From IMG/VR virus record IMGVR_UViG_3300049919_000103, positions 1-38,475 of that record: a DNA stretch of 38,475 nt. One strand, given 5' to 3'. The position numbers were made by a program, and so were the translations under genes. The stretch comes from a virus. Shown one piece after another: positions 5,392 to 38,475 of the stretch. The notes beneath the pieces were generated by a model. The model did not search any database and was not told the origin of the DNA. It was given only the letters and a program-made list of their open reading frames with translations. Positions within the stretch are counted from its first letter, which is position 1; each line of letters begins with the position of its first letter.

Positions 5392-8300
5392 TTATCCAAT
5401 TATTCCAGTAGCTTTCAGATCAGCTATTAAAGTGGCGACCACGTCCGCTAACTCATTTACAGTTGTTGCGTCTGCATCGTATGTTCTATCTGTCGTTCCG
5501 TTGGTTACTGTGTATGTCGATGAGCGAGCAACAGGTGTCACTCCGTAGAGTCCTACAGTTGTTCCATCGTGGTTTAGTGCTCCGTCAAGCTCTACATCAT
5601 CTGAGAACAAGAAGTTAGCCCCTGCACCAACTGCATTAAATGTCACTGCTCCAGCACTTGATACAGTTGTTGAGAAGTAGTTAGAAACATCGTAGTACAG
5701 TCTTAGTTGCTCTGTTGTAGAAAGTACAGATAGCTTTCCTGCTCCACCTGTAAGGCCTACGTTTGTTTGGCCTGCAAATGCAACTTCACCTCCAAGAGAA
5801 CGGATAGCAAAATTTGTGCCACCTTTTGCCATGTCCTCAAGATAGATACCGTATTGAGTAGTGAGAGTTCCAGAACCTGCCATGTTTCGGAGATACAAGC
5901 CGTAGTGAGCGTTTACTGTTGAACCTGTATTGATTGATGAGTAAATATCAATACCTCGTGAGTCGGTAACGTTGCTGTCATACTGCATTACATAGTACAG
6001 AGCTTTTGATTGAGCCAATGTTCCTGAGCCAGAGAGCGTTTCAATTTGTCCTCCGATACCATAAATAGCCTCGTTTGTTCCTGCACCTGATTTTTGCATT
6101 CTTGACCAAATTCCTGACCAAGAGTATGTGTTCATCGCAGAACTGTTTGATATAGCAGTCAAAGACTTAAATGTTGCCGAGTTATCAGAAATAGTTGTCG
6201 GTGCATAGTAAACAGATTGAGCATGGGCAACAGGTGAAGCGGCATTTAGCACGCTTTCTCCCACTGATAAGTAACCATCTTTATCGAAAGCTGACTGAAC
6301 TGTTCCTGCACTTGTTCTGAATGAAAGTTGAGCACCTGTCTGGTCTGATTTTCTTCGTAGCTCAAGCGTAGAGTCTGTTGCTGTTGTTGTGTTTACTACC
6401 GCTAGTCGAGCTGTGTACAATTCTACTAACCCGTCTCCAAGAGCAATACGACCAGAGCCGAACATAGCCATTCTCTGAGTACCAGAGTTTGTGTTGATTG
6501 AAGGTGTTGTGTAGAAAAATAGCCCAGTGAACGCCTGACCTATACTTGAACCTCCTCCGACATAAAGTTCGTTCACTGAACCTGTCGAAGCATAGTGCAT
6601 TATGTTTACAGCGTTTTGAGCGGTGGCATAAGGAGCGCCGTAAAATCTCCCGTATTTGTCTGTGTTGTTTGTTCGAGTGACGTTGTTCAAGTTCGCCCCC
6701 ATAACAATAGAAGCTGGAGAACCACCGAATGAAACGTCAAGGTAAGGTGCAAGGTTAGCGTTTGCCATTCCAGCCAAAGCTCCTGAACCGAAGCCCATCG
6801 CTCCTGTACTAGCAAACCAAAATGCTTTTGTGCCAACACTGCTTAGAATCGCGAGATAGTCGCCTGTTTGAGAAGTGATACCGTTGATTTCAAGTCCTCT
6901 GTTACCTGTAGCCCCCAGAGTTGTTTTTATTTGAACAGTTGAAGACGGGGCAACACCGACACCAAGTCTACCTGCACTATCAAAAGCAGAAAGAAGTGTT
7001 ACTGATGAGTTCTGTAATTCAAATAAGTTCCCCGACTGAGAAGCCATACCCCTAAGAGTAAGAACCTTGTTTGTTGTAGTTGTTTCGTTCCCAATAAATA
7101 TCTTCGATGTATTCGTTGCATGAGCAAAGTTTGAACTAGAAGTCATTGCTGTATTCCCAGAGTTCATGTATGGAATACGATTTGCTCCAAATGACGATGC
7201 ACCTGTTCCTCCGTAAGCTATACCGATAGGGGAACCAGTTGTGAGGGTTCCAGCGTACACCGTATCTGCGTGAATGTTTGTGTTTATCTCTTGTATAGTT
7301 CCATACGCATTTTCAAAGCGTAAGTGTTGCTGTGCAAAATCCCACTTAAATCTAAGGTAGTCATATAATCCGTTATATCCGAACTTGAAAGGGGTAAAGT
7401 CTGAAGCAAAGTAATCACTTGCAGATTGAAACCAAGCAGCTGACCTTGGAACAACTATTGATGTCGGACTTAGCGTTGGAGTTCCACCTGTCCATGATGT
7501 GAAAGGTGTTATTTGATATGCTACGACGTTTCCAACGTCAATATATTGGTTACCGTTTGCATCGTAAATAATATAACCAGTTACTTGAGTAGCTCCACTC
7601 CAGTCTAAATCAATGTTATAATTACTTGAGTCGTTAGGGTCTGTTGCACTTACATAAAGTCCTCCACTATCATACGCTGTTGAAAATCCATCATAGTAAT
7701 ATGAATATATGTAGTATTGGTAAGTTGTTCCGTTAGCAAAGAACCCAGAACCATCTAGTGTGAACGTAATGTTAGCTGATGTTGGAGGTGTTGGGGTAAC
7801 AGTTTCATCTGCTAGGTTGAAATGTTGAACACCTGTCCAAGTGTTTGAGTTGGCGAGGTTAATACCTAGAGTATCTCCTGTTTCAGTAAGGGTTGAATCT
7901 GTAGCTCCTGTTATATAACCTCCAGCGTTATCAAAAGCAACTGTCAGAGTCTCGTTACCACCGTTATTGTTTTCAGTAAATGTTATTCCTGATCCTGCTA
8001 CTAACTTACCGTTTAGATAACCTGCTGTAGTGTCGTTTGCTGATACTTTTGTTTTTTCGTCGGTGTCTGCTACTGGAATAACAGAAATTCGTGTATCACC
8101 TCCTACTTGTTCTAGGCTGATATTTGCCCCTGCGATGAGCTTACTAGTTGGACCTCCGCCTCCTTTCCCTCTCTCACCTACTGCCACTATACGAGCTTCT
8201 AGGGCATCTAATCCCTCTACTCTCTCTCGTTTGATTTGCTTAGAACTAGTATTAACTTTTTCAATGATCATGTCTGGCAAGTCAGTCACCGCTACTTGCA

Positions 8301-8723: not shown

Positions 8724-8751
8724 TTGCAGAGATATATAGTTGAGGTATAAT
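8724..8751 (+). promoter_or_regulatory. Plus-strand sigma70-type promoter for the tRNA island
   Basis: TTGCAG (8724-8729), 16 nt, TATAAT (8746-8751). The -10 is a perfect match. Predicted start is near 8758, leading into the folded leader and the tRNA. It faces against the surrounding late operon. Confidence 0.65.
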
Positions 8752-8754
8752 GGA

Positions 8755-8865
8755 GTTGCCTGAAAAGGTCATCAACTGTAAGACGGATTAGATTTTCAAA
8801 ACTCTATTCACTAATCGTTTGTTGCTAGATTTTCTATCAACGACGGTTGATGAATGGAGTTTTTT
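8755..8865 (+). promoter_or_regulatory. Attenuator-like folded leader before the tRNA
   Basis: A 13-bp stem with one G-U pair (8798-8810/8851-8863) enclosing nested stems (8816-8829/8833-8845) runs straight into six T (8860-8865), an intrinsic-terminator signature 4 nt before the tRNA. Competing pairings exist: 8783-8791/8811-8818 (ACgGATTAG/CTAATCGT), which traps the terminator 5' arm in its loop, and 8770-8776/8846-8852 (CATCAAC/GTTGATG). This looks like a terminator/antiterminator switch. No T-box sequence is present. Confidence 0.55.
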
Positions 8866-8869
8866 ATAT

Positions 8870-8964
8870 GGAGGGGTGGTAGAGCGGTTTATTGCAACTG
8901 TCTTAAACACAGTCGGACTACCTTGACCAGGTCAGTTCCGTGGGTTCGAATCCCATCCCCTCCG
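8870..8964 (+). tRNA. Class II tRNA, anticodon UAA, with serine-like body
   Basis: All arms fold. The acceptor is GGAGGGG/CCCCTCC. The D stem is GTA/TGC. The anticodon stem is ACTGT/ACAGT with loop CTTAAAC, giving UAA (Leu UUA codon). A long variable arm follows (GACT ACCT/AGGT c AGTT), then the T stem GTGGG/CCCAT with loop TTCGAAT. The discriminator is G (8964) and CCA is not encoded (GCA follows). The G73, the GGAG acceptor and the D-loop AGCGGTTTA resemble bacterial tRNA-Ser rather than tRNA-Leu, which carries A73. Standard tools would label it tRNA-Leu(TAA). Charging identity is uncertain. Confidence 0.85.
8915..8932 (+). repeat. 18-nt inverted repeat, arm 1 (tRNA variable arm)
   Basis: GGACTACCTTGACCAGGT forms most of the tRNA variable arm and is the exact reverse complement of 9031-9048. 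A perfect 18-mer match 98 nt away is not expected by chance. Confidence 0.95.
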
Positions 8965-8971
8965 CATTGAG

Positions 8972-8996: not shown

Positions 8997-9024
8997 TTGC
9001 TTTCTGCCCTATTCTTGGTATAGT
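8997..9024 (+). promoter_or_regulatory. Extended -10 promoter of the putative sRNA
   Basis: TTGCTT (8997-9002), 16 nt, TATAGT (9019-9024) preceded by TGG, an extended -10. The predicted start, 7 nt downstream, falls at 9031, exactly where complementarity to the tRNA begins. Confidence 0.6.
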
Positions 9025-9030
9025 GTTAAT

Positions 9031-9168
9031 ACCTGGTCAAGGTAGTCCTAATGTTCTAACCAATCTATTGGACAAGAATAAACGGACTAATAACATTTTT
9101 CTTTAAAAGGCCTTCTAGTACAGTTAGAGAAGAATGTTAGCAGAAGCACCCGAAAGGGTGTTTTTTGT
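9031..9168 (+). ncRNA. Putative sRNA antisense to the tRNA variable arm
   Basis: A transcript from the promoter at 8997-9024 to the terminator at 9146-9168 would be ~138 nt with no ORF of useful length. Its first 18 nt (9031-9048) are exactly complementary to 8915-8932 of the upstream tRNA. Internal stems AGTCC/GGACT (9044-9048/9084-9088), AATGTT/AACATT (9050-9055/9092-9097) and CCAA/TTGG would partly fold it. It could bind the tRNA or its precursor. In a read-through transcript the same repeat would form an 18-bp hairpin that unfolds the tRNA. Confidence 0.6.
9146..9168 (+). terminator. Intrinsic terminator of the sRNA/tRNA unit
   Basis: A CACCC stem, GAAA tetraloop and GGGTG, followed by TTTTTTG. 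The stem can extend by a G-U pair. This is a classic plus-strand terminator that separates the RNA genes from the three small ORFs. Confidence 0.9.
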
Positions 9169-13235: not shown

Positions 13236-14993
13236 TTAAATATTACTTAACGGTGTAGCTTCTAAAGTGTAGGAAACAATCTCCGCACCTCCTGTTGAAA
13301 TCAATTGAAATTTAAACTCTCTTCCACTTGGAAAGTTCTCGTCAGTTGCTTCAATATTTACGAAAGTACGTGAAAGACTATCTACCGTTGAGTAGGTTCC
13401 AATCGTTGTCCATGTCAAAGCGTCATCGACTTTTACTTTTGCTGAAATTGCTTGACCTGTTGTTAGTTTTGCAAAAGAAACTTTAAGAGACTCAAGTCGT
13501 TTATCATGCTCAACCTCTTCAAAGTCAAAGATTTGTGTTTCATATATTGACGAGAAAGTGAAAACAGAAGTATCGTCAGTCTTATCAATCGATCCGTCAT
13601 TTGAGTGAGCGACGAAAAAGAAATTTCCAGCAGAACCTATTGCTTGAATCCCGTTTGTGTTTACATTCTCGTCAATGAAATCAAGCGAGAGAGCAAATGG
13701 GTAGTTCGCATTCTTTCGACCAAATGACCAAATCCCTTCGTTGTATTCTGTCCCTGCGGTGTTGGTAAAAATCTTAGCAGACCAAAACAGACGATTGTTT
13801 TTTACTGTTTTTGAAAGTGGGATTGTTTTTCCTGTCAGTTTGGCGGTGAAAACTTCTTTGACTACTTGAGGCGAACCATCTGCATACGTCTGAATTATCA
13901 TTGAACCTTTTCCTGCTCCTGTTGATGAGTTTAGGTAACGGTCAGTTACTCCTACTAGATACCCTTCGATCGTTTCAAGAATACGAAGTTCCCCCTCTCC
14001 CCAGTCAATTACTTCTTGTACGTCTGATGAGTAGAGGTTCCACAAAAAAACTTTCGAGACTCCATTGAAAGTTGAGATAGGAGCACATGCGATTGCTAAA
14101 TACTTACCATAGTTTGTAAGCGACGTGATTTTAAAGTTTGTCGGAAGTTTAAGTGCTTGATCTTGTACTGTTCCTGATGGGTAAACTCTAACGATTGTAT
14201 TGTTGTATGGGAGATATAAGTTGTCATCTAAGGCAATTATTCCTTGAGCTACTGAGGTAATAGTTGCACTTGTGTTTCCTATTGTTGAAACAGTTATCGT
14301 ACAGCCTGAACCACTTCCTGTATTTACCGTAGTAGCTTTTGAACCTGTGGTATACGCTGAACCTCCTTCGATAAGGGTTACACCAGTCACGCCACCCGTT
14401 CCATTTACTGACGTCACAATACATGTAGCGGTGTTTGAACCTCCTGTTAAAGTAAGAATGTTGTTCACTCCGTAGTTGGTTCCTGCGGCGTTGATCGCAA
14501 TTGCCGTTACGGCACTGTAAATTGTCCCCACAGTTCCTGCACTGTTTGTAATACTGGGAGCACCAGAAAGAATCCCCCATTTAAAGACTTGGGTAGTTCC
14601 CTGAAAACCCCAAAGATAATCTTTATACTCAACAAGACAGCCGTTTTGTGCTGCTCCGTTACCTTCTGATGAGGCTGGGAGAGTCCAATTTCCAGTTGTA
14701 GCGTCCGCTTTGTACACAATTTTAGTTAGCCCTGCACCAGTTTGACCTAGACCATAGAGCTTAGAAGATGCTGAGGCGTATAAAAAGTCTCGAACAAAGT
14801 ACTGTTTCATTCCTGTAGCAGTACTTCCATCGTTTGTGTCGGTCTCTAGTGACCTGTAAGGTGTTAGCTTTTGCGGATCAGAGAAGATGTCAAAATGTTT
14901 TGCGACGATAAATTCACTTCCTGATTCTTTTCTAGGATTGTCTGAGATCCCCCCAGAAAATTGGTTGATTTTTATTTGGACGGTTTTAGACAT
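13236..14993 (-). CDS. Tail nozzle / stabilisation-like protein
   Basis: 585 residues, beta-rich. It opens with IKINQFSGGISDNPR, a start seen in tail-hub or stabilisation proteins of podoviruses (P22 gp10-like, T7 gp12-like). The middle (residues ~150-240) is a Gly/Thr-rich insertion with two GTNYGVNN/GSAYTTG-like units. Later segments have propeller-like repeats. It lies downstream of the adaptor, in the expected order adaptor, nozzle, ejection proteins. Its start overlaps the preceding fibre stop by 8 nt. The family call is by pattern and order. Confidence 0.55.
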   Translation of the reverse strand: MSKTVQIKINQFSGGISDNPRKESGSEFIVAKHFDIFSDPQKLTPYRSLETDTNDGSTATGMKQYFVRDFLYASASSKLYGLGQTGAGLTKIVYKADATTGNWTLPASSEGNGAAQNGCLVEYKDYLWGFQGTTQVFKWGILSGAPSITNSAGTVGTIYSAVTAIAINAAGTNYGVNNILTLTGGSNTATCIVTSVNGTGGVTGVTLIEGGSAYTTGSKATTVNTGSGSGCTITVSTIGNTSATITSVAQGIIALDDNLYLPYNNTIVRVYPSGTVQDQALKLPTNFKITSLTNYGKYLAIACAPISTFNGVSKVFLWNLYSSDVQEVIDWGEGELRILETIEGYLVGVTDRYLNSSTGAGKGSMIIQTYADGSPQVVKEVFTAKLTGKTIPLSKTVKNNRLFWSAKIFTNTAGTEYNEGIWSFGRKNANYPFALSLDFIDENVNTNGIQAIGSAGNFFFVAHSNDGSIDKTDDTSVFTFSSIYETQIFDFEEVEHDKRLESLKVSFAKLTTGQAISAKVKVDDALTWTTIGTYSTVDSLSRTFVNIEATDENFPSGREFKFQLISTGGAEIVSYTLEATPLSNI

Positions 14994-17484: not shown

Positions 17485-18606
17485 TTAATTTCCCAAAACT
17501 TCCTCAACTTTTTTAGTAATATTGTCACTGTTATACTGCCATGTATCTTTTACATAGTTGTATGCGTTTTCTCCAAGCCATAATCTCTTCTCTTTGTTTA
17601 GGATCAAATCTTCAAAGGCATTAAACCATTCGTTATCTTTCACTAGTAACCCAGTCACTTCATCTTCTATCATTTCTTTGCCATCTAACTCCATAAAATA
17701 GGGATAGACACGAGAAGCAATGGTAGGTGTTTTAAACATTGAATATTCCATCCACTTAATATGCGATTTTGAACGAGTAAAAGGAGTATTCACAAGTGGA
17801 GCGATACCGACATCCCACGGTTGTTGTGAAAGCCATTCAGGATATTCTTTAAATGTTTCAGTCGCTCCCACTAAATCCATTCTGTCCATAATATCTTTCG
17901 GGATTCCTCTATAGACTTTATTAACGTCTTTTGTTCCAACAACTCCAAGACATTGAAAGCGTACATTTTTATATTTTTGCATAATCTTTACGATCGAAGG
18001 AAGAACCATCGCAATATCATCGTGGTGTGAATTTGAGCCAGAGTACCCAATAATAAAGTCTTTTGTTTTTTCTACTGGTACATGGTTCCAATCTCGTACA
18101 TCGTTGTAGTTTGGAATGACAACAATTGGTTTATCAATGCCATGTACTTCTTTAATATGCCCTTGTAATCTAGCCTTGAGAGGCTCTGTAGTCGTCACTA
18201 CCACGTCTGCAAACGAAAGAATGGTAGATAGAAAGGCGCGGTCTTTCTTAGTTCTTTTGAACTTGTCATACATTAAATTACTCTCAGGAACATCTAAGTA
18301 GTTATCATCACAGTCAATAACGACTTTCTTGCCGTGTTTCTGAGCGTGATAGAAAATAGCTCCTGCTGCTTCGGGGTCAGAGAAGTAGTTAGTCCAATAG
18401 ACATCGTAGTCAGTGAAGACTTTGTTCCACTGTTCTTCTAACGTATTACCAAAAAGCATAATTTCTTTACCAATGACTTTCACGTCATGACCTTTGAGAT
18501 TTTCTGCAATCTTTACAATCCGGTAATAACCTAATCCTCCATACTCATTGAGCTTTTTACGTTTATCGTTGTGGGTGTAATCTGCGTAGTTAAAAAGTAT
18601 CTTCAT
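17485..18606 (-). CDS. Glycosyltransferase, GT4/GT-B-like
   Basis: 373 residues with a two-domain GT-B layout. The N-terminal part has YGGLGYYRIVKIAENL and VVIDCDDNYLDVP. The C-terminal part has FIIGYSGSNSHHDD, DVGIAPLVNTPFTRSKSHIKWMEYS (a GT4-type nucleotide-sugar binding region) and a final ENAYNYVKDTW. It would move a sugar from a nucleotide donor to a glycan or protein. It is last in the six-gene sugar cassette; its start overlaps the upstream stop. Donor and acceptor are unknown. Confidence 0.8.
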   Translation of the reverse strand: MKILFNYADYTHNDKRKKLNEYGGLGYYRIVKIAENLKGHDVKVIGKEIMLFGNTLEEQWNKVFTDYDVYWTNYFSDPEAAGAIFYHAQKHGKKVVIDCDDNYLDVPESNLMYDKFKRTKKDRAFLSTILSFADVVVTTTEPLKARLQGHIKEVHGIDKPIVVIPNYNDVRDWNHVPVEKTKDFIIGYSGSNSHHDDIAMVLPSIVKIMQKYKNVRFQCLGVVGTKDVNKVYRGIPKDIMDRMDLVGATETFKEYPEWLSQQPWDVGIAPLVNTPFTRSKSHIKWMEYSMFKTPTIASRVYPYFMELDGKEMIEDEVTGLLVKDNEWFNAFEDLILNKEKRLWLGENAYNYVKDTWQYNSDNITKKVEEVLGN

Positions 18607-19292
18607 TATATTTTATTAGGGTCGTTAAAGTTCCCTTCGTGGTGTACGTGAGAAAATATCTGAAAAGCATTGTCTCGAATTGCTGATCCGTCTTCCTGGA
18701 CTAAGAAAGGTTCATCGATAATATTGACTCGAAGCCCTACTTTATCTACGGCATACATAAAACTGATCTGATCTCGTCGTGAAAAGCGTGCATATTCAGC
18801 CCACCACGCATTATTAAAGGCTTCTACTTTCTTTGTGTGTCTCCTAATTAAGATATTACATTCAGCCAATCCCATTTCTTTAGGGAAACCTTGGTCTTCG
18901 TAATACTTTGCTTGTTCGATAATAATTTCAGGGTCATCCTGTTTTAGAGTGGCACAGGTCATGGCCTCCTTATATAAACAATCTCGTGTGGGATGTTTAA
19001 AAACAGCAAAATCGTGATGCTTTAAATACCTCTCGATAATTTCTTCTGGTGAGATAAGAAGTTTAATATTGCCATCGATCCAAATAGAATATTCTGTATC
19101 AACATACTTATGGATGAGTATTTTATGAATACGTGAGTTTCTTCGAGGGTCTTTGAAGTTGTTGTAGGCCTTTTCTATCTTCCATGTTTCGGACCAATTT
19201 GTTTCGTCAAGAAAAGCTTTGAATATCCCTTTGCCTTTCTGCTCGATAAGGTGATCTTTGCCACCTGTAATGCTTGTAACAGTTGTTACCAT
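18606..19292 (-). CDS. Glycosyltransferase-like protein, TOD1/MUCI70 (DUF616) type
   Basis: 228 residues. Motifs RNSRIHKILIHKY, YSIWIDGNIKLL (DxN region), FAVFKHPTRDCLYKEA and SRRDQISFMYA match the conserved blocks of the DUF616/TOD1-like family, a GT-A-type fold. It probably adds a sugar to a surface glycan together with its two glycosyltransferase neighbours. It overlaps both flanking genes by 1-7 nt, so it is co-translated. Confidence 0.7.
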   Translation of the reverse strand: MVTTVTSITGGKDHLIEQKGKGIFKAFLDETNWSETWKIEKAYNNFKDPRRNSRIHKILIHKYVDTEYSIWIDGNIKLLISPEEIIERYLKHHDFAVFKHPTRDCLYKEAMTCATLKQDDPEIIIEQAKYYEDQGFPKEMGLAECNILIRRHTKKVEAFNNAWWAEYARFSRRDQISFMYAVDKVGLRVNIIDEPFLVQEDGSAIRDNAFQIFSHVHHEGNFNDPNKI

Positions 19293-20074
19293 ATAATTTT
19301 ATTATCAGTTAGAAACTTTAAGCCCTTTTCTTCTTCAGCTGTATTAGCTCCATGAGTATTCGATATGTAACCCCTTTCTCCCTCGATCACATACCCAGAA
19401 ACACGATAAGCTGGTGAAAGATACCCAACCTTAATATTGTTCTCATTAATAAATCGCATTAATGGATATAAAGTAGCGTTCCAGTCATAGAGTTCGTTTC
19501 GGTCTTCTGATACGGTTGTTTCTCCGACACGGCTTAGAGTTACTTCTGAAAGGTCAAACTTCCCTCCAATCTTTTTAAGGAATGATTGCTTAAAAAACTC
19601 GCATGACCCTCTAATAGTGCCTTGTGGCATACCAGTAGAGTTTGCTAAGACTTCCCATTCATCAAAAGACTCATCAGATATGACATCTTTAAACCAACTT
19701 GTATTTAAAATAAGATTATCGTCGTGTGTAAAAAGAAATAAGTCGTAGTCTTTATAGTTATGTTTCTCTAACCACTGATTTGAGTTCCCCCAGTCGCCGA
19801 TAGTGTTCGGTTCTTCTATGTATTCAAAGCCTAACATTTGTAATTGTTTTACTGTGGCTAGTTCGTGATACAAAATCTTATCTAGCTTTTCTCGTTGAGT
19901 ATTACCGAGAACTTTAGTTTTCTTTTCTTCACAAGCGAACGACGGATCTCGATGAGATATACAAAAATAATCCACTTTCCAACCTTTAGGAACCTTTTGG
20001 CGAGCGATTCTATCGTAGAAATGGAGCGGAAAGTGCCAACCTGAAATAACTACAGCTAGTCTTTTTTGGGACAT
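19286..20074 (-). CDS. Probable glycosyltransferase / glycan-modifying protein
   Basis: 262 residues. It opens with a Rossmann-like strand (RLAVVISGWHFPLHFYDRIA), then YDLFLFTHDDN, a DDx acidic motif like the metal-binding site of GT-A enzymes, and NSTGMPQGTIRGSCEF. The family cannot be named with confidence. The sugar-cassette setting and the DD motif support a transferase. It overlaps the methyltransferase gene by 19 nt. Confidence 0.55.
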   Translation of the reverse strand: MSQKRLAVVISGWHFPLHFYDRIARQKVPKGWKVDYFCISHRDPSFACEEKKTKVLGNTQREKLDKILYHELATVKQLQMLGFEYIEEPNTIGDWGNSNQWLEKHNYKDYDLFLFTHDDNLILNTSWFKDVISDESFDEWEVLANSTGMPQGTIRGSCEFFKQSFLKKIGGKFDLSEVTLSRVGETTVSEDRNELYDWNATLYPLMRFINENNIKVGYLSPAYRVSGYVIEGERGYISNTHGANTAEEEKGLKFLTDNKIIW

Positions 20075-20499
20075 AGTTTAAAGGTCATTTGACGACCGTT
20101 ATGATCTAGTAATTCGATTATAAAAGGTTTGAAGCCATAGTGACGACCGTATTGTTCATAACGTCTATGTCCATGCTCCATGTAGGTAAATGACTGCTCA
20201 GTGAATCTACGCACATCGGCTGGGTCTTGCCACGCACATTCATGTAAAGCATAAGGAACACGAATAAAGATGTTACCCTCAGTCACTCGCCATAGTTCGT
20301 TCATGACAAATATAAAGGTTTTTGAGTCAGCAATTTGAGTTAAAACATTATTAGCAATAACTTCACTGAAATAATTATTCTTATAAGGGATACCGTACTG
20401 CACATCAAAAGTAATGTCTGCATTTACTTCGTCAGAAATATCAGCATTGATATAGCCTTCTCTATAATCTTTTCCACATCCGAGATTTAATTTTGGCAT
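20056..20499 (-). CDS. SAM-dependent methyltransferase (class I)
   Basis: About 147 residues from the start at 20499 (MPKLNLGCGKDYREGYINADI). The LNLGCG motif I and the following acidic DIS are typical of small phage and glycan-cassette methyltransferases, as are IPYKNNYFSEVIANNVL and MNELWRVTEGNIFIRVPYA. The longer frame start at 20556 adds 19 residues lying over the aminotransferase gene and is rejected because motif I would be displaced from the N-terminus. It probably methylates a sugar made or transferred by the cassette. Confidence 0.75.
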   Translation of the reverse strand: MPKLNLGCGKDYREGYINADISDEVNADITFDVQYGIPYKNNYFSEVIANNVLTQIADSKTFIFVMNELWRVTEGNIFIRVPYALHECAWQDPADVRRFTEQSFTYMEHGHRRYEQYGRHYGFKPFIIELLDHNGRQMTFKLCPKKD

Positions 20500-21467
20500 A
20501 TTGCTTCCTTTGCTTGTGTAATAGTTACTCCATGATGGAATGGGAGCAGTCGCCAACCATTCTCAATCTTATCCATGACCGGGCAATCATTTTTAAACTT
20601 CTTAAAGAGAGTGTACTTATCATTTCTAAAATGGTGTTGGTTCCCTTTCTTCCCCCATTGAATACAAAGCCATGCATGACACTCGATTTCAGGCTGTAAA
20701 TTATAGAAGTCTCTTAGTTTTTTTCGTTTAGCAAGAACTTTATCAATACACGCTAGATTTCCTCGGCCAATTGCAGCTGTCACATCGTTCATATGATATT
20801 TATACCCAGCTTCTATGAGATCAGTGTCTCCTTTCCGTTGCTTAAGGTCACGGTCATAACCGAACCACCTAAGCTTTTTAGCCCGTCTATAGTCTTCATT
20901 TCTCTTACAAATAAGAAAGCCTCCATCTCCTGAAGTAAGCGTCTTAATTGCTTGGAGTGAAACACACGTAAATTCAGCATTTCCCCAGTATCCACTTCCC
21001 ACTGCTTGAGCGGCATCTTCAATAATCGTAATACCTCGCTCTCTACCAATTTTGATAATCTCTTTAAGTCCTCGGTTGTTACCCCCGAAATGGACAAAGA
21101 CGATGGCTTTTGTTTTCTTGGTGATTTTCTTTTTGACATCTTCAATATTTATATTAAGGTCGTAGTCTGTGTCAGCGAATACTATTTTTGCTCCTAATCT
21201 AACAAGCGGTATATTGGTCGCTGTACATGTTAAAACAGGAGTTATGACCTCATCGCCTTCTTTGATTCCAGCAAGCTCATAGGCCAATTCTAAGGCACTA
21301 GAGCCACTGTTTAGGGCTACTACGTTCTTTAAATTGAACTTCTTAGCAAACTCTTGTTCAAACTTTTTAACCTCTGGACCTTCCGCCAATTGGTCTGATA
21401 AAAGAACACGGACGACATTAAAGACAGCTCGAAAACTAACATAAGGCTTAAATAGTTTTATAGCCAT
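20487..21467 (-). CDS. DegT/DnrJ/EryC1/StrS-type sugar aminotransferase
   Basis: 326 residues, somewhat shorter than the usual 360-390. PLP-enzyme motifs are present: NSGSSALELAYELAG, DEVITP, IIEDAAQAVGS and SLQAIKTLTSGDGG with the Schiff-base Lys, then GYKYHMNDVTAAIG. It transfers an amino group to a keto-sugar nucleotide, matching the 4-keto product of the dehydratase encoded directly upstream with a 10-nt overlap. The shortened C-terminus may reflect a compact phage version. Confidence 0.85.
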   Translation of the reverse strand: MAIKLFKPYVSFRAVFNVVRVLLSDQLAEGPEVKKFEQEFAKKFNLKNVVALNSGSSALELAYELAGIKEGDEVITPVLTCTATNIPLVRLGAKIVFADTDYDLNINIEDVKKKITKKTKAIVFVHFGGNNRGLKEIIKIGRERGITIIEDAAQAVGSGYWGNAEFTCVSLQAIKTLTSGDGGFLICKRNEDYRRAKKLRWFGYDRDLKQRKGDTDLIEAGYKYHMNDVTAAIGRGNLACIDKVLAKRKKLRDFYNLQPEIECHAWLCIQWGKKGNQHHFRNDKYTLFKKFKNDCPVMDKIENGWRLLPFHHGVTITQAKEAICQN

Positions 21468-22465
21468 AATGGGTTACTTAGTGTCCAGTTAATGTACTTA
21501 GTGAGTGACTCTCTAAAGTCGTATGGTGCAAGCCAACCAGCTTCACGTAGCTTATCTCCGTCTAAGCTGTATCGTCTATCGTGTCCTGGGCGTGTAGCGT
21601 GGAAGTCTACTAGCTCGTATTTCAACTCTTTACCCATGATCTCTGACACCATTTGTGCGAGTTGTAAGTTATCAAGTTCTATGTCACCCACAATGTTAAA
21701 CTTCTCAGGGCGTGTATGGTCTTCGTCATCAAACATTGTTGGGGTAACGTTATTAACAATGAAAAGGAGTGCATCAGCCATGTTGCGAGCGTGGAGATAG
21801 TGCCTTTTTCCAACGTAGTCTTTAGAGCCGTGAACGGTCACTACTTCTCCGTTGTTAATTTTTCGTACCAGTTGGGCTGTGTACTTTTCAGGGTCTTGGA
21901 ACTCACCCACTAAATTCATCGTGTTAGTGATGATGAGCGGAATACCATAAGTCCTCCAATAAGAAATAGTAATTGACTCCTGTGCTGCCTTAGAAGCTGA
22001 ATAGGGGTTACTAGGGAGGATCGTAGCCCACTCTTTGTGATCTACGCCTTCTGGCGCTACGCCGTATACTTCATCAGTAGAGAATTGTAGAAACTTCTTG
22101 CATGGATATTCCCTCGCAAATTCCAACATCGTAAGATTAATATTTACGTTGTTCTGAATAAATGGAACAGGGTCGTCTATACTCCTATCAACGTGAGATT
22201 CACTCGCTACATGGAGAATGTAATCACATACACCAATTCTCTTTTTAGTTCGTTCTGGGAAAGGTGCTGTGAGGTCGTGTGTAATGATCTCTACTCTGTC
22301 TTTATAGCTAGGGTCACGCTTCAAAACTTCTTCTATGCGTTCTGGCGTTCCTTTATGCTTCCACGAAGCCACTCCAATTACCTTCCAGTCTGTATTAACA
22401 AGGATATGCTCGAAAATGTGAGAACCTGCGAACCCTGATATGCCTGTGAGAAGTACTTTTTTCAT
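21458..22465 (-). CDS. NAD-dependent nucleotide-sugar 4,6-dehydratase (RmlB-like)
   Basis: 335 residues, extended SDR family. TGISGFAGSH (7-16) binds NAD. HVASESHVDRSI, FSTDEVYG and YSASKAA (the YxxxK catalytic pair) follow, and RPGHDRRYSLD near the C-terminus is characteristic of RmlB. It converts an NDP-hexose (dTDP-glucose in RmlB) to the 4-keto-6-deoxy form for the neighbouring aminotransferase. No RmlA, C or D is encoded, so the substrate must come from the host. Confidence 0.85.
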   Translation of the reverse strand: MKKVLLTGISGFAGSHIFEHILVNTDWKVIGVASWKHKGTPERIEEVLKRDPSYKDRVEIITHDLTAPFPERTKKRIGVCDYILHVASESHVDRSIDDPVPFIQNNVNINLTMLEFAREYPCKKFLQFSTDEVYGVAPEGVDHKEWATILPSNPYSASKAAQESITISYWRTYGIPLIITNTMNLVGEFQDPEKYTAQLVRKINNGEVVTVHGSKDYVGKRHYLHARNMADALLFIVNNVTPTMFDDEDHTRPEKFNIVGDIELDNLQLAQMVSEIMGKELKYELVDFHATRPGHDRRYSLDGDKLREAGWLAPYDFRESLTKYINWTLSNPLWL

Positions 22466-26804: not shown

Positions 26805-27167
26805 TTATGGCAATGTTTTTACATTTTGTTTAACACTAGATTGAGTGTTTTTCATCAACTCTTTCAGGACAAACCATTCCAGTTCACCGAAGAAGTAGGA
26901 GTTTACAGTTTCGCAACCCTTATCAAGTACTGGTTTTGTTTTTATAAAAACTTTCGTTCTAGTGTTCCAACGTTTCAATGTTTGGTGAGCAATCTTTCGT
27001 TTTGTTTTAACTTCGTAATACTCAGCCATATCCCGAACAGAGTAGCCAAGGACACAATGCCGTCTCCACATTTCTTTCCATGTGCCTAATGAAACTTTAT
27101 ACTCCTTAGAAAAACGAGTATCAGGATCACAGGTAAATAATTCACTTTTAGTAATAAGAATTAACAT
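26805..27167 (-). CDS. Protein of unknown function between terminase and portal
   Basis: 120 residues, basic, with a probable helix-turn-helix-like segment (CVLGYSVRDMAEYYEVKTKRKIAHQTLKRW). It overlaps the terminase stop by 1 nt. It might be a small DNA-binding factor; no family recognised. Confidence 0.6.
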   Translation of the reverse strand: MLILITKSELFTCDPDTRFSKEYKVSLGTWKEMWRRHCVLGYSVRDMAEYYEVKTKRKIAHQTLKRWNTRTKVFIKTKPVLDKGCETVNSYFFGELEWFVLKELMKNTQSSVKQNVKTLP

Positions 27168-28351
27168 TATTCAAAAGCTTTTTTAGTCGCACGATTCTGA
27201 TTAACCCGAGCTTGCATAACATAATCCGGCATACTTGGTTGAAATGACGTCATAGCGTAACGTAGAGCGTCAAGGCAGTGATCTAGCCCTCCTTCTGGTA
27301 CATTTAAAATCTTGCCATCTCGGTCAATGGCCCATAGGTAGTTTCTATACTCTTTTATTAAATTGACTGAACGCTTTGTTATAGAAATCTTTTGATTCTG
27401 AATAAATTGAATCCCTTGATTGATCGAGCCTGGACCTTTTACAGCTGGTTGAATGTTCACGTCATAGCTTTTGATTTCATCAATTGATTTAGGTTCAGCA
27501 CTATCAGCAATCGCCAAAGTTTCAGGCAAAACCTTAATAGTGTCAGCTATTTGTTTATTACTCATTCCTTTTTTGTAACAAACTTCATCAAGGATATATC
27601 CCCCGTTATAGTAGTAAATATCTACAATGGCTGTAGGATCATTTGTATAGCCAAAGTCCACACCACGACGTTCCAGGCGTGCCTCATGGGGAAATTCATC
27701 AAGTATCTGCCAATCTTTATAAATCTTCCCTTCTACTTCTCCGAGCTGTCCTAGTCCATACACTTGCCACCAGCCTTTGCGATTTTTTCGTTGCTCAATT
27801 GAGTTTATAATTTCCTTTGAGAGAGCTTCATTATCTTTGTAAGTCAGTACTATTAATTCAGCATCATCTCGTTTTTGTATAACATCTGTATAAAACCAAA
27901 ACTCGTTAGTCGGGTTCCAGTCTAGGTATACAAATTCTTTTGTACGAACTTCTAATTGATCGAAAGCATCTAAAGGAATGTTGTTTGCTTCGTTAATGAA
28001 TAGCCTGTCACGTCTAGCTCCTCGAAGTTTATCTGGTTGATCAGCACTAAAGAACTCTATTTGTGATTTAGTTTCAAAGGTATAAATAGAATCGGAAGCA
28101 CTCCAACTATCTTCTTTCCAGTAATTATGAGCTTGCATGATGTTCTTAAAGTCACGAATAGCCCCACGTTTTAAGTGTGGGACTGATTCAGATACGATTG
28201 AAGTAAGAGTAGGTTTCGTGTCTCTTTGTGATTTATCTATCAACACCAAAAGAGTTGAAATGGTCTTTGAAGCAGAAGTACCGCCTTGCACACCTCTAAT
28301 CTTCTTAGTTAGACTCTGTACTTTCTTCGTTGATGTTGTTAGTTGGTACAT
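27167..28351 (-). CDS. Terminase large subunit (TerL)
   Basis: 394 residues, an ATPase-nuclease. The Walker A variant is GGTSASKT (23-30) and Walker B with catalytic Glu is LFINEAN (118-123). An RNase H-like nuclease carries acidic residues in DFGYTNDPTA (D232), IADSAEP (D283) and GGLDHCLDALRYA (D357/D361). It cuts concatemeric or circular DNA and pumps it through the portal. The start overlaps the small subunit by 47 nt and is kept because Walker A lies close to the N-terminus as in other TerL proteins. Confidence 0.9.
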   Translation of the reverse strand: MYQLTTSTKKVQSLTKKIRGVQGGTSASKTISTLLVLIDKSQRDTKPTLTSIVSESVPHLKRGAIRDFKNIMQAHNYWKEDSWSASDSIYTFETKSQIEFFSADQPDKLRGARRDRLFINEANNIPLDAFDQLEVRTKEFVYLDWNPTNEFWFYTDVIQKRDDAELIVLTYKDNEALSKEIINSIEQRKNRKGWWQVYGLGQLGEVEGKIYKDWQILDEFPHEARLERRGVDFGYTNDPTAIVDIYYYNGGYILDEVCYKKGMSNKQIADTIKVLPETLAIADSAEPKSIDEIKSYDVNIQPAVKGPGSINQGIQFIQNQKISITKRSVNLIKEYRNYLWAIDRDGKILNVPEGGLDHCLDALRYAMTSFQPSMPDYVMQARVNQNRATKKAFE

Positions 28352-28619
28352 TTCCTAATATTGGTGTGGGTAACGTTACCTCTACTTTAGAATCTTCTGT
28401 GCTGTGCGGATTTCCTTCTGCCATTTTCCAGATTGCTTCTTTAGGCATACCTTCCATAAACTCATCTCGTTCCTCATCAGTCATACGAGAAAGGTACTCT
28501 TTAGCCCACTCCTTCATAGTCTTCCCTTTAGGTCTCCCTAAAATATTTCCGCTTTGCCCTTTTTTCCATAACCAAGGTTTAGGATTACTGTTTTCGATTT
28601 GATTATCAGATTCTGTCAT
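28305..28619 (-). CDS. Terminase small subunit-like protein (DUF5681-type)
   Basis: 104 residues. The motif WKKGQSGNILGRPKGKT (20-36) is the hallmark of the DUF5681 family, encoded directly before TerL in many phages. A helical section and a polar tail follow. It probably recognises packaging DNA for TerL. It lies immediately upstream of and overlaps TerL. Confidence 0.75.
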   Translation of the reverse strand: MTESDNQIENSNPKPWLWKKGQSGNILGRPKGKTMKEWAKEYLSRMTDEERDEFMEGMPKEAIWKMAEGNPHSTEDSKVEVTLPTPILGNVPTNNINEESTESN

Positions 28620-37805: not shown

Positions 37806-37824
37806 GATGATGATTTATGCCCTT

Positions 37825-37905
37825 CGTTCACCTTCCCATCATGTGAGATGGAAGGTGGCATTCTTTGGTAGAAGATATACTCCTTCTCTTTCGAGAAGGT
37901 GAACG
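37825..37905 (-). promoter_or_regulatory. Folded early leader with alternative pairings
   Basis: On the minus strand CCTTCTC-GAAA-GAGAAGG (37899-37882) is a perfect 7-bp GNRA hairpin. CACCTTCC-ATC/GAT-GGGAAGGTG (37857-37829) is a second hairpin. An 11-bp perfect pairing joins 37905-37895 with 37835-37825 (CGTTCACCTTC), and this excludes both. It lies 20 nt before the first early gene, so it may switch translation or transcription. Confidence 0.6.
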
Positions 37906-37994
37906 AACACATGATTAAAACTGCTGGGCTGGCAGTTATGAAGTAGCGACAAAATGATAAGTAAAATCACTACCTCGTAACTGACCTAAATAAG

Positions 37995-38022
37995 AAAAAA
38001 CAGCCCTGTTGAGAGCTGTTTT
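37995..38022 (-). terminator. Terminator downstream of the early folded RNA
   Basis: The minus-strand stem AAAACAGC/GCTGTTTT (38022-38015 with 38004-37997) has a 10-nt loop and is followed by six T and TCTT. On the plus strand the U tract is shorter (TTTTG), so minus is the likely direction. It would end a ~250-nt RNA from the promoter at 38283. Confidence 0.75.
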
Positions 38023-38058
38023 GTAGGTTTGTAGGCTTAATTAATTAGCAGTATTGCA

Positions 38059-38193
38059 AGATATATTGTTCGACGTAATCACTTTTTATACATCCCTAGC
38101 CTCGTAAGCTAGGGTCTTGAAAAGTGAGTCGAACGATATATCTGTTACCACGATCTTTTAAAATCTACTAAACAGTCTCTTATTTAGTAACAG
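38059..38193 (-). ncRNA. Structured early RNA, two-domain
   Basis: Domain 1 is a long hairpin. A 16-bp outer stem (38059-38074/38128-38143, one mismatch that is A-C on this strand and G-U on the other), an 8-bp stem (38079-38086/38120-38127) and a 7-bp apical stem CCCTAGC/GCTAGGG with a 7-nt loop are stacked. Domain 2, 5' of it, pairs CTGTTAC/GTAACAG (38187-38193/38142-38148) and ACTAAA/TTTAGT (38167-38172/38183-38188), which overlap slightly. No ORF. It lies between a strong promoter and a terminator, so an sRNA or a put-like antiterminator RNA is possible. Confidence 0.65.
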
Positions 38194-38255
38194 TATTTAG
38201 TTGTCAAAGTTCAGAAATTTGGTAATCGTGTATAACAGGTTTGACTGATAACTGT

Positions 38256-38283
38256 AGTATATACCTTTATGCCTACCTGTCAA
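38256..38283 (-). promoter_or_regulatory. Strong early promoter
   Basis: TTGACA (38283-38278), 16 nt, TATACT (38261-38256) on the minus strand: a perfect -35 and 5 of 6 at -10. It is the best sigma70-type promoter I see in the window. Predicted start is near 38249. It lies just after the join-spanning gene's stop and drives the structured RNA and, if the terminator is passed, the early operon. Confidence 0.75.
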
Positions 38284-38286
38284 ATA

Positions 38287-38475
38287 TTATTCTTGTAAAT
38301 CTGGGGATAACTTTTTGACCTTCTTTTTGATACCAGAAAGCCATCGATACATTTGCTTTTTATCGTATCGTCCTAGTACTATCAAAGAGATCTCTTTATA
38401 TGTCTTACCTTTCAGACGCATAGCCCTCGCCTTCTTCTGGTCTTCTAGACGTGGCTGTCTGCCTTGTGGTCGCTT
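38287..38475 (-). CDS. HTH-type DNA-binding protein, C-terminal part (same gene as 1-424)
   Basis: This is the 3' end of the join-spanning gene. Bases 38349-38475 duplicate 1-127, so only 38287-38348 is new. It encodes the end of the recognition helix and a basic tail (KKKVKKL), then TAA. The early promoter -35 element (38278-38283) begins just beyond this stop codon. An open reading frame across the join supports a circular map. Confidence 0.8.
   Translation of the reverse strand, partial: KRPQGRQPRLEDQKKARAMRLKGKTYKEISLIVLGRYDKKQMYRWLSGIKKKVKKLSPDLQE
38349..38475. repeat. Terminal direct repeat, right copy (circular overlap)
   Basis: Exact copy of bases 1-127. The non-redundant genome is therefore 38,348 bp. 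Trimming this copy restores an uninterrupted minus-strand gene from 424 to 38287. Confidence 0.95.

Follow-up and report, generated by a model that had tools for sequence, protein, structure and literature searches.

A promoter, a folded RNA and a terminator ahead of the early genes of an uncultured tailed phage: a possible terminated early leader

What might a strong promoter, a stably folded RNA and a terminator, with no gene between them, do when they stand at the entrance to a phage's early operon? This question is raised by one locus of the virus record IMGVR_UViG_3300049919_000103. The window analyzed here is the entire record of 38,475 bases; it opens and closes with the same 127 bases, and the genome is thus circular or circularly permuted as assembled, with the 127-base terminal repeat perhaps being an assembler overlap. 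All of the identified genes are on the minus strand, and those predicted to encode capsid, portal, terminase, amidase, SSB, DnaD-like, NinB-like and exonuclease proteins mark this uncultured phage as a tailed one. Searching 50,697 phage records with 25 kb plus 676 bp of the window gave no DNA match, and a terminase search of genome contigs for the host returned only two MAG contigs. Elsewhere in the genome, a conserved 104-aa ORF (28305–28619, minus strand) overlaps, in another frame, the beginning of a large terminase gene (27167–28351, minus strand) that is short, at 394 aa, and could be the small terminase or a sign of a split or frameshifted terminase. Beside the capsid gene lies a sugar cassette (17485–22465, minus strand) of glycosyltransferases, an aminotransferase and a nucleotide-sugar epimerase, which suggests glycosylated virions; of the 51 capsid-linked records, up to 32 contain relatives. 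A 27-nt inverted repeat (1497–1523 and 1591–1617, 89% complementary, 67 nt apart) is found in the late-end noncoding region, and a 13-nt perfect inverted repeat at 1315–1327 and 1348–1360.

The unit sits at the junction of the late and early genes, just ahead of the early operon. On its upstream side, a helix-turn-helix (HTH)-like gene begins at 424 and spans the circular end of the record (C-terminal part at 38287–38475, minus strand; joined translation 161 aa), with its stop codon 4 bp ahead of the promoter. Its product has a weak Myb/HTH-like Pfam match under the cut-off, and used as an anchor it found no relatives, with none in the 34 capsid-linked records in a search run without a positive control. 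Upstream of this gene, a palindrome around TATACTTA is followed by two hairpins (620–425, minus strand), a layout similar to that at 7250–6740 (minus strand) of record G009. On the downstream side, the first early gene (37805–37656, minus strand) encodes a 49-aa small protein of membrane type, as judged by eye, and proteins of similar size occupy the same place in two other loci, L003 and L131. The third early gene (37393–36860, minus strand) encodes a 177-aa protein of phrog_21613, of which the function is not known, and served as the anchor for relatives.

The presence of a promoter, a folded RNA and a terminator at this junction is confirmed. The promoter, TTGACA-16-TATACT (38283–38256, minus strand), agrees with the consensus at 11 of 12 bases. 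It directly precedes genes for recombination and replication that share its strand, and is the sole match of its kind in the window, compared with zero expected from 100 shuffles. It also has the highest score genome-wide on both strands (12.6, followed by 10.95) under a sigma70-type matrix. Judged from the −10 box, the predicted noncoding RNA would begin at 38249 and run for ~253 nt to 37997 (minus strand), where it ends in an intrinsic terminator (38022–37997) of 11 pairs and −12.2 kcal/mol with the tail TTCTTATTT. The fold of the 253-nt RNA has a z-score of −6.85, none of 200 shuffles being equally stable, and its core is a rod hairpin (38143–38061, minus strand; −32.2 kcal/mol, z −7.44) with stems of ~15–16 bp including one C·A mismatch, 8 bp and 9 bp. 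The preliminary description of this locus had reported a near-consensus promoter, an intrinsic terminator and no ORF, all of which were borne out. On the minus strand of the unit there are only a 21-aa GTG frame and a 28-aa TTG frame, the latter beginning inside the promoter. The stem lengths of 16, 8 and 7 bp given there were nearly right, and the second domain is indeed predicted, as a 5′ domain closed by a long-range stem (38238–38142, minus strand), though a weaker one, with a z-score of −2.07 and 5 of 200 shuffles equally stable. In the predicted fold, the 5′ domain and the rod, of ~97 and ~83 nt respectively, are adjacent, with no unpaired base between them.

The stretch from the terminator to the first early gene carries further features. 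Two stable hairpins that had escaped the preliminary description are located here, one of 16 bp with one mismatch (37984–37934, minus strand; z −5.17), and the other branched (37909–37820, minus strand; z −4.6), with a 13-nt perfect inverted repeat that permits alternative pairing. The earlier statement that no other good early promoter is visible downstream holds for the most part: nothing comparable was found, but a weak promoter-like site, TTCATA-17-TTTAAT (37942–37914, minus strand; 9 of 12 consensus bases), is the best between the terminator and the first gene, its score being matched by 9% of leader shuffles and 46% of whole-junction shuffles.

The RNA itself matches no Rfam family. An Rfam scan of the window gave no family at threshold except tRNA, and up to E 10 the best match in the unit was mir-9449, on the opposite strand and far under threshold; 6S RNA was rejected, no Rfam 6S covariance model being among the matches of the unit up to that E-value. 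Against the phage's own transcripts, the longest antisense complementarity was 11–12 nt, compared with 10–13 nt for shuffled RNA. Two short matches, an 11-mer ACAACTAAATA common to the folded RNA and positions 564–554, and a 10-nt pairing of RNA positions 63–72 with 37995–37986, are near chance. Sequence relatives of the RNA were absent from the phage records in a distant-mode search and from the viral_contigs collection with a 22-base exact pattern and a gapped stem pattern; none was significant in the fetched loci or in 34 records found via the capsid protein, where the best match had an E-value of 0.016 over 16 nt. The fold is accordingly a prediction from a single sequence, unsupported by covariation.

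We then compared the layout of the junction across related phages, for which the 177-aa gene gave 15 loci and the capsid gene 51. The junctions of six relatives were selected by visual inspection, G027 being added to loci with a relative of the 177-aa gene; the pool was those 15 loci and the capsid-linked records, excluding loci in which the 177-aa gene is inside a longer operon (e.g. L004–L007, L130, L134, L137 and L138). L131 has, after an amidase-like gene, a promoter, ~100 nt of hairpins, a terminator, a gene for a 50-aa hydrophobic protein and the SSB gene; in L003 there are, in order, a promoter, a long hairpin, a terminator, genes for ~47-aa and 76-aa proteins, and the relative of the 177-aa gene; and in G027, a promoter, a long hairpin, a terminator and another large hairpin precede early genes, this unit being inside the early region and not at the late/early boundary. 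L132, L135 and L136 have no same-strand RNA unit at the corresponding place. The RNAs of the different phages have no common sequence, and what they share is the layout.

The distance from the best promoter of the junction to the first early gene differed between the two sets: 450 nt in the window, 447 nt in L131 and 478 nt in G027, all with the unit, versus 43 nt in L132, 30 nt in L135 and 26 nt in L136 (where the first gene start is a guess), all without it. L003 departs from this pattern, having an RNA unit and yet its best promoter 50 nt from the first gene. These distances suggest the role of early promoter for the promoter of the RNA, and a gating role for the terminator at the entry to the early operon. 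Control of early gene entry, as the preliminary description proposed, thereby gains some comparative support, as in three of the four phages with the unit the promoter of the RNA is the best of the whole junction, 447–478 nt before the first early gene. Compared with shuffles of its own junction, the promoter stands out clearly in the window (0.01) and G027 (0.04) and not in L131 (0.21); among the phages without the RNA unit, only that of L135 clearly beats its shuffles.

Units of this kind were also counted in gaps between genes, using a simple ORF-based gap caller and an E. coli-like promoter matrix. A set of 98 records with 364 gaps gave 41 promoter–RNA–terminator units compared with 4 in one shuffled set, approximately a tenfold excess, where the 41 include one unit of the window twice and near-identical contigs (L036/L038), and the counts refer to records, not independent phages. 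A further 51 records yielded 17 units in 200 gaps versus 3, 3 and 2 in shuffled sets, approximately sixfold. The unit of G017/L003 was recognized by eye; the scans missed it. The strongest unit folds were L078 9134–9222, L131 1703–1802, G027 21107–20997 and G033 10654–10548. Promoter–RNA–terminator units are thus non-random and common in this phage group, with no shared sequence.

One further unit in the window lies opposite to the genes and beside a tRNA. This tRNA (8870–8965, plus strand; anticodon TAA, i.e. UAA) has a long variable arm, and after it a promoter–RNA–terminator unit (9024–9163, plus strand) has a 5′ hairpin that is reverse complementary to the arm over 18 nt without a mismatch. 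A promoter TTGCAG-16-TATAAT and a large T-tailed hairpin (8724–8866, plus strand) closely precede the tRNA. In G009 (L103), a different long-arm tRNA (13995–14086, plus strand; anticodon CCA) stands beside the homolog of the tail gene that neighbors the tRNA of the window, and a unit there (14183–14360, plus strand) carries 12 nt complementary to the variable arm of G009's own tRNA. The two unit sequences differ, while the complementarity to the adjacent arm is kept. Among 29 tRNAs in 149 records (25 and 4 from two record sets, some in near-identical contigs), downstream complementarity reached these 18 and 12 nt in the window and G009 and at most 9 nt in the others. The predicted pairing gain was −8.2 and −6.5 kcal/mol for the cognate pairs versus −0.8 and −0.1 kcal/mol when swapped; the whole-duplex energy in G009, −41.5 compared with a shuffle mean of −45.8, is not beyond shuffles. 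Both tRNA bodies (anticodons UAA and CCA) have a long arm and G73, which we take to be serine-like features, and it is conceivable, as a speculation from two genomes only, that the RNA masks the arm read by seryl-tRNA synthetase.

Two known systems offer a comparison. To our knowledge, antitermination by RNA alone is known from few phages. In HK022, the put RNA forms two stem-loops near an early promoter and suppresses termination through the β′ zinc-binding domain of polymerase; put elements resemble one another in sequence. PMC9378689 describes put RNAs as folded, ~70 nt long, and located behind an early promoter with terminators beyond, and the folded RNA studied here resembles putL/putR in standing behind a presumed early promoter and before a terminator. 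When putL was located in the HK022 genome from features given in PMC9378689 and used as a query, it recovered putR at E 7e-5 as a positive control and found no match in the unit. The AGACG/CGUCU pairing characteristic of put is, at the spacing it has there, absent from the whole window. As putL finds putR and nothing in the unit, membership of the put family was rejected, in line with the length of ~180–250 nt, approximately three times that of put. The nearest logic in the literature consulted for comparison is that of lambdoid PR′–tR′, in which, as described in PMC6606751 and PMC4604602, a strong promoter, a short noncoding leader and an intrinsic terminator precede an operon, and Q opens the way. 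The unit likewise has a strong promoter, an intrinsic terminator within a few hundred nt and a same-strand operon, but precedes the early and not the late operon, and its leader is far more folded than shuffles. The lambdoid Q site has a direct repeat between −35 and −10; in the promoter spacer region here, AGGTA was noted twice by eye, which may be a coincidence.

Our preferred reading, to which we assign a probability of about 0.43, is that the unit is a terminated early leader with a logic like that of lambda PR′–tR′. The promoter at 38283–38256 would be active early, most polymerases would halt at 37997, yielding a stable ~250-nt RNA, and those passing the terminator would transcribe the early operon from 37805, so that early mRNA would arise by read-through; the gate might open through simple leakiness, through a factor from the host or the phage, or by action of the RNA. 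The best promoter of the genome directly before same-strand early genes, with none comparable from the terminator to the first gene, suggests this, as do the best-promoter distance that tracks the RNA unit in the relatives and the excess of units over shuffles. Against it stand the best promoter of L003 near its gene, the L131 promoter that is not above shuffles, the G027 unit inside the early region, RNAs that share no sequence between phages, and a fold more elaborate than a leader gate needs. Moreover, no Q-like or other antiterminator protein was recognized among 50 protein pieces compared with PHROGs at E 0.001 and at E 0.1, and like units occur where gating is impossible, such as the opposite-strand 9024–9163. 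Since the phage has at least one other unit of this build, on the opposite strand, with no gene to gate, a stand-alone small-RNA gene is nearly as likely: the ~250-nt RNA would act in trans, its targets being RNA or protein of the host or the phage, and the early operon would use its own weak or factor-dependent promoter near 37942–37914. The unit is complete and gene-like, having, as phage small RNAs generally do, its own promoter, stable fold and terminator with no ORF, though it matches no Rfam family at threshold; the second such unit of the phage, on the opposite strand, has no downstream gene there, the site TTCATA-17-TTTAAT is available in the leader, and L003 combines an RNA unit with a separate promoter beside its first gene. 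The shuffled-level complementarity to phage transcripts and the weakness of the leader promoter weigh against this reading.

The earlier alternative of an abundant small RNA or a put-like antiterminator fares unevenly: its first half fits the strong promoter, stable fold, terminator and missing ORF, while put family membership is unsupported by similarity to putL or by length. Action in the manner of put, in which the nascent RNA would bind polymerase and carry it past 37997 and later terminators without a phage protein, is unlikely; the RNA is in the right place after a presumed early promoter with a terminator directly downstream, is predicted to fold into two abutting domains, and would act at a stage of infection when freshly synthesized phage factors are presumably not yet at hand to open a gate, but the lack of putL similarity despite the recovery of putR, the absent put pairing, the excess over the ~70 nt of put (PMC9378689) and the weak 5′ domain all argue against it. 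We also consider it unlikely that in each phage of this uncultured group polymerase gets past the terminator ahead of the early operon by means of a folded leader RNA peculiar to that phage and unrelated to the others, a protein-free early gate that would mean that put-like control arose many times or evolves too fast to be recognized by sequence. Least probable is a DNA-level element, such as operators or a replication or packaging site, whose palindromes merely resemble RNA hairpins: several palindromes do cluster in 37820–38143 at the late/early gene junction, yet a promoter and a terminator are correctly ordered on one strand around the hairpin, and similarly ordered units in relatives exceed shuffles.

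The unit is small enough for a reporter or in vitro study. As a stand-alone small RNA, it would be a candidate for a strongly expressed phage RNA; and if these fast-changing leaders control early entry, folded RNA would underlie the control of early genes across a large group of uncultured phages.
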